This document shows positions 30,308-46,877 of a stretch of DNA of 64,000 nt, one piece after another; the first letter of the stretch is position 1; each line of letters begins with the position of its first letter. Below the pieces are notes generated by a model. The model was not told the DNA's origin. It worked only from the letters and a program-made list of their open reading frames with translations, and ran no database searches. The DNA lies in assembly GCF_001403735.1 (NCBI RefSeq), contig NZ_CXPG01000017.1, positions 1 through 64,000 on the forward strand, written 5' to 3'. This DNA is from Jannaschia rubra. GTDB taxonomy: Bacteria > Pseudomonadota > Alphaproteobacteria > Rhodobacterales > Rhodobacteraceae. A program made the translations under genes and the position numbers.

Positions 30308-31000
30308 TCAGTAGCTGCGGATCAGGCCGACAAGCCGCCCCTGAACCTTGACCTGATCTTCGCGCAGGAGTCGGGTTTCATAGCTCGGGTTCGCCGCTTC
30401 CAGCGCGATCATCCCCTTCACGCGACGATACCGCTTGAGCGTCGCCTCATGGCCTTCGACCAGTGCGACCACAATGTCGCCGTTCTCGGCCGTGCCCTGA
30501 TCGCGGATCACCACGACGTCCCCATCGTTGATGCCGGCGTCGATCATCGAATCGCCCTTGACCTCAAGAGCGTAATGATTGCCCCCACGATCCAGCATCT
30601 GGCCGGGAACCGCAACGTGATGCGAAACTTCGCTGATCGCCTCGATCGGCACACCGGCTGCGATGCGTCCCATGACGGGCAGTTCGATTGCGTGAATACG
30701 AACCGGCATGGCATTGTGCGGGGCACCCTGTTCCGACGCGCCGCCCTCGATCACCCGGGGTACGAAGGACGCACCGCCGACCATGTCTTCCGGCAGGCGC
30801 GTGATCTCGATCGCGCGCGCACGGTGCGCAAGGCGACGGATGAACCCCCGCTCCTCCAGAGCGGTTATGAGCCGGTGGATTCCCGATTTGGAGCGCAGAT
30901 CCAGCGCGTCCTTCATCTCGTCGAACGAAGGCGGCACCCCATCCCGCTGAACGCGCGTGTGAATGAACGCCAGAAGGTCGCGTTGCTTGCGGGTCAACAT
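30308..31000 (-). CDS. lexA: LexA repressor (SOS regulator)
   Basis: LexA represses DNA-damage genes and self-cleaves when RecA is activated. The 230-residue product has an N-terminal winged helix ('[18 protein letters not shown]', '[24 protein letters not shown]') and a C-terminal S24 peptidase domain with cleavage site Ala115-Gly116 ('IAAGVP'), Ser151 ('KGDSMIDAG') and Lys189 ('ATLKRYRR'). The start at 31000 fits the conserved N-terminus, with AGGGA upstream. An alphaproteobacterial SOS box lies 45-59 bp upstream, so it is autoregulated. A perfect CtrA box lies further upstream. Confidence 0.97.
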
Positions 31001-31044: not shown

Positions 31045-31059
31045 GTTCTAGAAAAGTTC
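31045..31059. promoter_or_regulatory. LexA binding site (SOS box) of lexA
   Basis: GTTC-TAGAAAA-GTTC matches the alphaproteobacterial SOS consensus GTTC-N7-GTTC exactly. It lies 45 bp upstream of the lexA start codon, where repression of its own promoter is expected. Confidence 0.9.
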
Positions 31060-40405: not shown

Positions 40406-45521
<5,116 letters not shown>

Positions 45522-45533
45522 GATTGAAGTTCC

Positions 45534-45595
45534 CATTTGTTCCTGTTTGTTCTGATAAAGTTCTTGATTTTTTGTTAATGATGTGAGAACAAATG
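45534..45595. repeat. 9-bp inverted repeat flanking the SOS promoter region
   Basis: CATTTGTTC (45534-45542) and GAACAAATG (45587-45595) form a perfect 9-bp inverted repeat, 44 bp apart, enclosing the SOS box in an AT-rich island. Each arm contains a GTTC or GAAC half-site, so the repeat may add LexA contacts or form a stem in recG readthrough RNA. Confidence 0.5.
45549..45563. promoter_or_regulatory. LexA binding site (SOS box) upstream of a microprotein gene
   Basis: GTTC-TGATAAA-GTTC matches GTTC-N7-GTTC exactly. Two more GTTC half-sites precede it at 6-bp spacings (from 45529 on). It lies 57 bp upstream of the 41-residue open frame, a normal promoter distance. Confidence 0.82.
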
Positions 45596-45620
45596 AGCAA
45601 CAGGAAGAAAAGGTGAGCAG

Positions 45621-45746
45621 ATGACCCACAAGATCAAGACCACCCTGAACCGTGTGGAGGCGGAGCCCGTCATGGATGTGCTGGCCGGGGTCTGGCTGGT
45701 GACACTTCTGCTCAGTCTCCTGCACCTTCCGTCATTGGTCGTCTGA
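45621..45746 (+). CDS. SOS-controlled 41-residue single-pass membrane microprotein
   Basis: This short frame encodes 41 residues. The N-terminal half is soluble and positively charged ('MTHKIKTTLNRVEAEPV'), followed by one hydrophobic segment ('MDVLAGVWLVTLLLSLLHL', then 'PSLVV'). The ribosome site AAAAGGTGAG is well placed, codon use is normal, an exact LexA box lies upstream and a strong terminator downstream, so it looks like a real monocistronic gene. I do not recognise the family. By design it resembles Caulobacter SidA, an SOS-induced 29-residue membrane inhibitor of cell division, so division inhibition is a hypothesis only. Confidence 0.72.
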   Translation: MTHKIKTTLNRVEAEPVMDVLAGVWLVTLLLSLLHLPSLVV

Positions 45747-45912
45747 TCGACTACGACCCGTTACCGCCTGCATCCTCTTCGATCTCTCGTCTGTCCGGAT
45801 CTCCCCATGTCCGCAGACATAGCGTCGCCGCCTCGTCCCCGGGAGGTGATGCCCGGCCGGCGCGGTCCTGCCCGACCGCCGGCCATCGATCGAACGCCGG
45901 GATGCCACTTTG

Positions 45913-45949
45913 CCGCCGCCTCCGCCCCACGGAGTGCGGCGGTTTTTTT
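45913..45949 (+). terminator. Strong intrinsic terminator after the microprotein gene
   Basis: A GC-rich stem (CCGCCG-C-CTCCG / CGGAG-TG-CGGCGG) is followed by seven T. It ends the SOS microprotein transcript. Before it, GGCCGGCG/CGCCGGCC (about 45854-45884) forms another hairpin, so the roughly 165-nt 3' untranslated region is highly structured and could itself be a small RNA. Confidence 0.85.
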
Positions 45950-45968
45950 GCCTGGATCGGTGCTGTCG

Positions 45969-46877
45969 TCAGACGTTGTCCTCTGCCTCAGTCCCCCCTG
46001 CTGCGAGGGAAGCCGAACCGGCATCACGCCAAACGAAGGTGTCGCACCAGTCCACGACGTCATTGATGCGCCGCCGGGCATCGGCTAGTCCTACGGTCGT
46101 ATGGCGCGCGCCGGTTTCAGCTGCAGCGCAGATCATTTCGACTTCATCCTCGGTCCGGGCGAGAACCCCCAGGGTTTCCTCGATGGCCATGAATTTGCTT
46201 CTGCAACTTGCCATCGTCGTCTGAATCTCTGAAATCGAATCGCGGGTTTCGGCGGCCGTACGGACCGTGCCGGCGAACTCCGGAGCCAGGCGTTCGCTGT
46301 CTTCGCGCATGGTTCGTGTCCAGTCGCCGAGGGATCCGATGGAGGTCTGGATGCCCCCTGCCGCGGTCGCCGTCTTGCGCGACAGTTCCTTCACGGCTTC
46401 CGCGACGACGGCGAATCCGCGTCCCGCGTCGCCTGCCCGGGCCGCTTCGATCGAGGCGTTGACGGCCAGGATGTTCACTTGCCGGGCGATCCGCGTGATC
46501 TCTCCGTTCGACGCCACGATATCACGCAGGACGGCTTCCAGAACTTCCGTACGGGGCGCGATTCCCGTGCCCCAGTCCGAGAGGACCTGGTGATTGCGGA
46601 AATTCTCCGCGATGGAGTCGAGCCGCGTCGCCGCCTCCCTTTCGGTGCGCTGAGCGGACCGTGCAAGATCGTCGAATTCCGTCCGCAGGGCTGTCAGCGC
46701 GGTGGAGAACGCATCGGTGCTGCGGCGCAGTTTCTCGATCTCGGTGAGGGTGGCGTCGGACGTACCGGCCAAGCCATCCACGAAAGACGAGATGTCGCCC
46801 ATCAGGTGGTCGAGCGGCCGGGCGTCGGGGGACGGCGTGTCGAATGTCAGCGAGCGCGGCAGGGCGGAACCGGTCAT
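45969..46877 (-). CDS. Soluble methyl-accepting chemotaxis-like signalling protein
   Basis: This 302-residue protein has no transmembrane segment or recognised sensor domain. The core is the MCP signalling hairpin, with tip 'QVNILAVNASIEAARAGDAGRGFAVVAEAVKELSRKTATA' (quoted in part) at about residues 132-170, flanked by long helices. The C-terminus contains a Cys-His region ('MICAAAETGARHTTVG', 'VVDWCDTFVW') that might bind a ligand or metal. It is probably a cytoplasmic transducer that works through CheA/CheW clusters or a related system. A degenerate CtrA-like box lies about 47 bp upstream. Confidence 0.87.
   Translation of the reverse strand: MTGSALPRSLTFDTPSPDARPLDHLMGDISSFVDGLAGTSDATLTEIEKLRRSTDAFSTALTALRTEFDDLARSAQRTEREAATRLDSIAENFRNHQVLSDWGTGIAPRTEVLEAVLRDIVASNGEITRIARQVNILAVNASIEAARAGDAGRGFAVVAEAVKELSRKTATAAGGIQTSIGSLGDWTRTMREDSERLAPEFAGTVRTAAETRDSISEIQTTMASCRSKFMAIEETLGVLARTEDEVEMICAAAETGARHTTVGLADARRRINDVVDWCDTFVWRDAGSASLAAGGTEAEDNV

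Follow-up and report, generated by a model that had tools for sequence, protein, structure and literature searches.

What is encoded in the short interval downstream of recG in Jannaschia rubra, where an apparent binding site of the SOS repressor LexA precedes a reading frame of only 41 codons? The interval lies in a stretch of 64,000 nucleotides (the window; contig NZ_CXPG01000017.1, positions 1 to 64,000), and a first-pass annotation, made from the letters alone, had read it as a dedicated gene for an SOS-regulated membrane microprotein, which may be a Rhodobacterales-specific division checkpoint factor. We find that this interpretation is supported in part, for a dedicated, family-specific small-protein gene and its LexA-box promoter, and that it is incomplete, as it overlooked a conserved structured RNA in the 3′ untranslated region (UTR), which is a new element of the locus; the observation is confirmed and enlarged. 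The reading that we favour, at a probability of roughly 45%, is that the locus would produce a LexA-repressed, DNA damage-induced transcript with two outputs, a membrane peptide and a structured RNA. Its boxes, its synteny, the purifying selection on its frame and its RNA fold are well supported by the comparison of related sequences.

Loss of the frame in relatives, with the box drifting, was the outcome that the first-pass annotation had named against itself; what we observe is a frame that stands after recG and behind its operator in all 19 congeners, and that is matched in 234 of 295 family genomes (E ≤ 1e-3; one genome per genus, the window's own included, counted from the result table). 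At the looser threshold of E ≤ 1, the frame profile matches 257 of these genomes. Of 60 relatives searched, 29 gave a match at E ≤ 1; all 19 congeners are included, at E 6.6e-14 to 0.0026, and the six weakest matches (L033 to L038, E 0.45–0.99) were not beside recG and were dropped as chance. The neighbourhood is constant, with recG directly upstream of the frame in 24/24 loci (L009–L032) and upstream of it in 30/30 family loci of a second, partly overlapping set. In a class-level sample of 289 genomes, four match the frame profile, all of them Rhodobacteraceae; of the 285 without a match, the 20 listed are all outside this family.

The frame also changes as a protein-coding sequence does. Differences among 15 congeneric sequences are distributed over the three codon positions as 1269, 615 and 2119, and the ratio of nonsynonymous to synonymous substitution rates (dN/dS) is about 0.28 over 105 pairs, so that the frame behaves as a coding gene under purifying selection. 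Four residues (M1, D19, L26 and P37) do not vary across 32 diverse sequences, and G22, L34, H35 and L36 hardly do. The membrane helix predicted by the first-pass annotation agrees with one strongly hydrophobic segment (mean Kyte–Doolittle hydropathy 2.06 over 19 residues) and with an AlphaFold2 model that consists of a single helix (residues 3–40, mean predicted local distance difference test score 76.7); the charged N-terminus suggests a topology with the N-terminus inside. The protein of the window has no profile match in Pfam, NCBIfam or PHROGs, and its relatives yield stray single-member matches only, the best with E 0.088 in NCBIfam (16 members) and, for 32 members, with E 0.0029 in PHROGs (to a PHROG without function) and 0.14 in Pfam.

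The stretch just downstream of recG is AT-rich and carries GTTC at 45529, 45539, 45549 and 45560, that is, the exact GTTC-N7-GTTC box and the two extra half-sites described in the first-pass annotation. By count, a single such box is not significant in the window (2 found, 1.84 expected), and conservation was used as the criterion instead, which does make the box significant; genome-wide, the exact pattern occurs 94 times, compared with 27 for the reversed pattern. The operator lies between recG and the frame in 24/24 aligned loci and is visible in 29 of the 30 further family loci, five of which (L054, L055, L058, L059, L066) repeat loci of the 24-locus set; the thirtieth (L078) was recovered by an operator pattern search.

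Aligned loci share a promoter order that extends beyond this box, namely GTTC-N7-GTTC, a −35-type TTTACA/TTGAC, 17–18 bp, and an inverted GAAC-N7-CAAC; neither the inverted box nor the −35-type element was in the first-pass annotation. We scanned a named genome collection independently with the exact composite promoter, without using the frame, and collected at least 118 loci, the first 80 of which have record titles naming Rhodobacteraceae, or just Rhodobacterales or Alphaproteobacteria. Among the 118 loci listed, recG lies less than 600 bases upstream in 116 and the frame downstream at E ≤ 1e-3 in 116; L165 and L209, without the frame, and L160, without recG, are cut off by the locus edge. 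A separate case is L218, where the promoter (1413–1458 of the oriented locus) and the frame are found with neither recG in the locus nor an RNA match; no other listed locus has the two apart from recG, and it is perhaps a moved copy. Of 40 chosen family genomes, 22 contain a looser composite pattern, each a single time (19/20 ORF-positive and 3/20 ORF-negative, where ORF stands for the open reading frame), and 0/40 contain it when it is read backwards; the three ORF-negative genomes that carry the promoter have a diverged small hydrophobic frame there.

Within the promoter, the −35-type element reads TTTACA in most relatives, TTGAC- in some and TTGATT in the window, and its distance to the GAAC measures 17 bp in 107 of the 118 listed loci and 18 bp in the other 11 (17 bp in the window), the search pattern having permitted 16–20 bp and itself included the GAAC. 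This fixed spacing, together with the alternation of TTTACA and TTGAC, suggests that the conserved element after the first box is a −35 element. The inverted box appears as GAACN7CAAC in 108/118 and as GAACN7[CT]AAC in 114/118 listed loci, and a further half-site stands N6 upstream of the core box in 108/118 of these pattern-selected loci. In Caulobacter, about 97% of SOS promoters carry one box, as given in excerpts of PMC12700426; two boxes plus half-sites, as opposed to one box there, suggest that the promoter would be tightly repressed; a harmful product would presumably require such tightness.

Core SOS genes of this genome carry the same signal. Within the window, about 14 kb from the small gene, lexA has a box of its own at 31045, directly upstream of the lexA domain; at recA, GTTC-N7-GTTC and GAAC-N7-GAAC form an inverted pair (L041, likewise L053), and a box precedes a frame read as uvrA (L042), identified by eye from its translation. 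In 13 regions around other genomic GTTCN7GTTC sites, few genes were recognised, uvrA and uvrD by eye and recA by a later search. At the recG locus the promoter box is conserved together with the gene, as in a LexA regulon member, and would be bound by LexA. One further region (L043, G000:C21:418500-420600) has GTTC-N7-GTTC between divergent frames, one of them prophage-like by eye, and is possibly an SOS-controlled mobile region.

The strong terminator of the first-pass annotation is real and conserved, and the 165 bases between the stop codon and this terminator hold the element that had gone unnoticed. In the window, the 3′ UTR folds with a z-score of −5.3, and 0/200 shuffles are as stable (terminator included). 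When 48 3′ UTRs were folded singly, those listed showed a recurring plan: CUGCC at the start, P1 as a long closing stem, then hairpins whose loops are C-rich, and the terminator. When 28 diverse 3′ UTRs were simply aligned (MAFFT/RNAalifold), the terminator was the only structure recovered. Evidence for P1 that needs no alignment comes from exchanging its arms between sequences: own arms pair at a mean of −22.8 kcal/mol and arms swapped between species at −16.4 kcal/mol in 48 sequences (0/10000 permutations; the regular expression mis-anchored several arms, e.g., in L009, L014, L079 and L082, which were kept, while L010 was dropped and L057 added), and at −21.7 and −17.1 in 19 sequences of the window's own genus (0/10000 permutations; RNA start set by hand in 7/19).

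Covariance models carry the fold further. The first (R1), built from nine closer sequences and a hand-set structure, matches 24 of 49 sources at E ≤ 1, namely the nine and 15 more (14 at E ≤ 0.0014, the weakest at 0.32); the additional 15 sit just downstream of the frame by coordinates, and none of the 24 is an own-genus locus. The second (R2) was built from these 24 matches; hairpin P4 was left out of the models because its alignment is ambiguous. In the 24-row alignment A4, 94.2% of cells pair, two-sided changes are seen in 17/22 pairs, and the covariation score is reached by 0/500 shuffles. At E ≤ 0.1, R2 matches 94 of the 118 listed promoter loci, always on the strand of the promoter and 139–266 nt downstream of it (61 of the first 80 loci at 139–266 nt, 33 of the other 38 at 153–218 nt). 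In the 61-row alignment A6, where three rows duplicate rows used for training and a fourth is >90% similar, pairing is seen in 92.5% of cells and two-sided change in 274 cells; the covariation score of 0.547 compares with 0.165 in shuffles (0/500 reach it) and ≤0.084 in slid controls. Alignments made by a model lean toward its structure, and the slid controls and the alignment-free swap tests serve as counterweight. Compensatory changes keep both P1 and hairpin P2. The 61 RNAs have a mean folding z-score of −3.2 (below −2 in 50/61) and 3.7 copies of the motif CTGYC each on average, compared with 0.6 in mononucleotide shuffles; such repetition would suit multiple contacts with RNA or protein.

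All 57 family genomes with an R2 match are also in the list of ORF matches, and in the 46 of them with printed coordinates the RNA lies just downstream of the frame on the same strand. Across 142 class genomes, R2 has two matches, one in a member of the family and one outside it (L256, E 0.06 for one genome); the latter, with recG and the frame both missing from its surroundings, is probably due to chance and was rejected. Rfam gives no match above gathering score for window positions 45400–46100 or for the loci of six relatives; matches below it, to a microRNA family, sX13 and rdlD and, outside the RNA, to Ysr141, were discarded. The features of the locus are collected in Table 1.

Table 1. 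Features of the recG-linked small-gene locus and of the lexA box in the window (positions of the 64,000-nucleotide stretch).
Feature	Position	Strand	Remark
recG	43437..45521	+	usual upstream neighbour; Pfam DEAD, Helicase_C, RecG wedge, RecG domain 3
Two additional GTTC half-sites (45529 and 45539), each N6 from the next	45529..45542	+	
LexA box 1, exact GTTC-N7-GTTC	45549..45563	+	consensus as in Caulobacter LexA (excerpts of PMC12700426)
−35-type element, TTGATT	45564..45569	+	putative promoter element
Second box, inverted, GAAC-N7-CAAC	45587..45601	-	predicted to bind LexA
Candidate ribosome-binding site AAGGTG	45610..45615	+	read from sequence
Gene for 41-residue protein, one predicted membrane helix	45621..45746	+	
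Structured 3′ UTR RNA: P1 (closing stem) with hairpins P2–P4	45762..45911	+	conserved
Closing stem P1	45770..45905; arms 45770-45784 and 45888-45905	+	
Hairpin P2, loop CUCCCCAU	45789..45818	+	
Hairpin P3, loop UCCC	45822..45852	+	
Hairpin P4, loop UCCUGC	45855..45884	+	
Intrinsic terminator	45912..45949	+	conserved in the 24 loci of the promoter alignment
LexA box of lexA	31045..31059	.	context; lexA DNA-binding domain at 30812-30997, minus strand

Beyond the terminator, a gene with a methyl-accepting chemotaxis protein (MCP) signalling domain (45969-46877, minus strand) runs convergently and faces the terminator of the small gene.

Excerpts of open-licence PubMed Central (PMC) papers mention neither the small gene nor the RNA, and describe no SOS division inhibitor of Rhodobacteraceae. 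A study of LexA sites in Dinoroseobacter names lexA, recA, dprA and others, with no mention of recG in its main text (PMC6473078); the main texts of small-RNA surveys in Ruegeria (PMC4809877) and Paracoccus (PMC5107571) contain none of the terms recG, LexA and SOS, and structured-RNA surveys, in excerpt, place Rhodobacterales motifs at other genes only (PMC2864571, PMC8632094). The RNA may stand unnamed in the supplements of such surveys.

Four known systems offer comparisons. Excerpts of PMC4211646 describe SidA of Caulobacter crescentus as an SOS-induced inner-membrane inhibitor of 29 residues that blocks division through FtsW. Compared with SidA by description, our locus has the same alphaproteobacterial LexA control (here judged by the box), a tiny protein and a predicted membrane helix, but the protein has 41 residues, and its gene adjoins recG and carries a conserved 3′ RNA; the frame profile, with its matches in Rhodobacteraceae only among the 289 class genomes, is one that a 29-residue protein may escape. 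A SidA-like role is plausible by this analogy. TisB of Escherichia coli is likewise an SOS-regulated membrane peptide. With TisB and with DinQ of the same species (PMC3567139, in excerpt) the locus shares a short single-helix peptide under LexA, again judged by the box, and a structured mRNA. For the RNA, a parallel is DinR, released from the 3′ end of the LexA-controlled dinI mRNA to repress ftsZ; according to excerpts of the same paper, DinI modulates RecA filaments and DinR is specific to Klebsiella (PMC10907235). Both cases involve an SOS mRNA for a small protein, the 3′ part of which may here be a regulatory RNA, and here too a conserved structured 3′ region ends in an intrinsic terminator; unlike DinR, the RNA here is shared by many genera and shows covariation. 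EcpR1 of Sinorhizobium meliloti is, in excerpts of PMC4414408, a member of the stringent response regulon that acts on cell-cycle mRNAs, with dnaA and gcrA as targets, elongates cells when overproduced and has a conserved GC-rich loop. The two alphaproteobacterial RNAs are both structured and have conserved loops, but EcpR1 is placed in the stringent response.

We infer a course of events that includes LexA binding, induction, translation, membrane insertion with its topology, both functions and all targets. LexA would bind the inverted pair of boxes that brackets the promoter and keep it tightly off until RecA filaments trigger LexA cleavage and the short mRNA is made. Its translation would give a 41-residue inner-membrane peptide with the positively charged N-terminal part inside and a single membrane helix ending in an LHLPxL-type motif, which would most likely act as a transient membrane brake on septation or growth, like SidA or TisB. 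The rest of the message would be a conserved RNA of four helices with C-rich loops, whole or processed, most likely regulatory in the same response in the manner of DinR or EcpR1, and probably acting through pairing of its loops with mRNAs.

Several observations weigh against this two-output transcript. No −10 element resembling TATAAT can be recognised: 17 bp downstream of the −35 stands GAACAA, which is shared with the LexA half-site. A consensus-based −10 assignment (window 45564-45592) failed, GAACAA being far from TATAAT although the spacing of 17–18 bp is kept. The number of A6 pairs with two-sided changes (21/22) is reached by 3/500 shuffles, and R2 matches just 57 of 149 family genomes, at one place each. 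In the window's own genus, R2 is not significant, so that the case for the fold there is made by the swap test and by the folding of single sequences; own-genus loops read CUCCCC instead of CUGUCCC. R2 finds no RNA at E ≤ 0.1 in 24 of the 118 listed promoter loci, some of which are truncated at the locus end. One genome (G088, locus L252) has the promoter and the frame with no RNA match even at E ≤ 10, which indicates that the RNA is dispensable or replaceable there. For the peptide, the function is proposed by analogy alone.

G088 is also a natural case in which the peptide and RNA outputs may be separated.

The alternative that survives best, if still unlikely in our estimate, is that the peptide is a depolarising SOS peptide of the TisB or DinQ kind, which would slow growth and favour persistence, with the 3′ fold controlling translation or stability as in type I toxin mRNAs. 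DinQ is described, in excerpt, as an SOS-regulated toxic peptide with a single transmembrane segment and with antisense RNAs (PMC3567139), and the small size of our peptide, its single predicted membrane helix, the doubly boxed and presumably tight promoter and the heavily structured mRNA would all fit. An antisense RNA gene was not identified at our locus, though no systematic search for one was made, and no species-specific signal was seen when the 5′ leader was tested for pairing with the 3′ RNA, as swapped partners did equally well or better in 3041/5000 permutations. Type I toxins are not usually conserved throughout a family at a single site, as this gene is beside recG, which also counts against this explanation.

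Clearly less probable is that the 3′ fold has no role in trans and just stabilises the mRNA and insulates it from the neighbouring gene. Its position between frame and terminator, opposite a convergent gene, agrees with this, yet a plain terminator would presumably suffice for the purpose, and the compensatory changes in P1 and P2 and the recurrence of CTGYC speak against it. We give somewhat less credit again to the idea that the locus chiefly makes the RNA, with the short frame serving mostly as a translated leader or carrier. Strong covariation and the high folding z-score speak for it, as does the finding, in excerpts of PMC10907235, that the start codon of Klebsiella dinI is dispensable for the cell-length effect of a dinIR construct; against it stand the purifying selection on the frame and its four residues kept across 32 diverse sequences, the retention of the frame in G088, and the presence of an ORF match in all 57 RNA-positive family genomes. 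That a chance box precedes a spurious frame, as the chance frequency of single boxes in the window might suggest, is refuted by the conservation of box, frame and place and hardly deserves any credence.

For the two-output transcript that we prefer, a more specific version is rather doubtful at present: a division checkpoint of Rhodobacteraceae in which one dual SOS transcript would supply a new family of divisome-stalling membrane peptides and, simultaneously, a new family of multi-hairpin RNAs that silence division or cell-cycle mRNAs through their repeated C-rich loops. If it were true, a protein brake and an RNA brake would share one damage-induced message beside recG across most of the family. 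With its strong conservation and its regular LexA-type operator, the gene is a direct candidate for an SOS division inhibitor of Rhodobacteraceae, and an RNA supported by covariation within an SOS mRNA would carry the idea behind DinR beyond a single genus, to a large part of a bacterial family.
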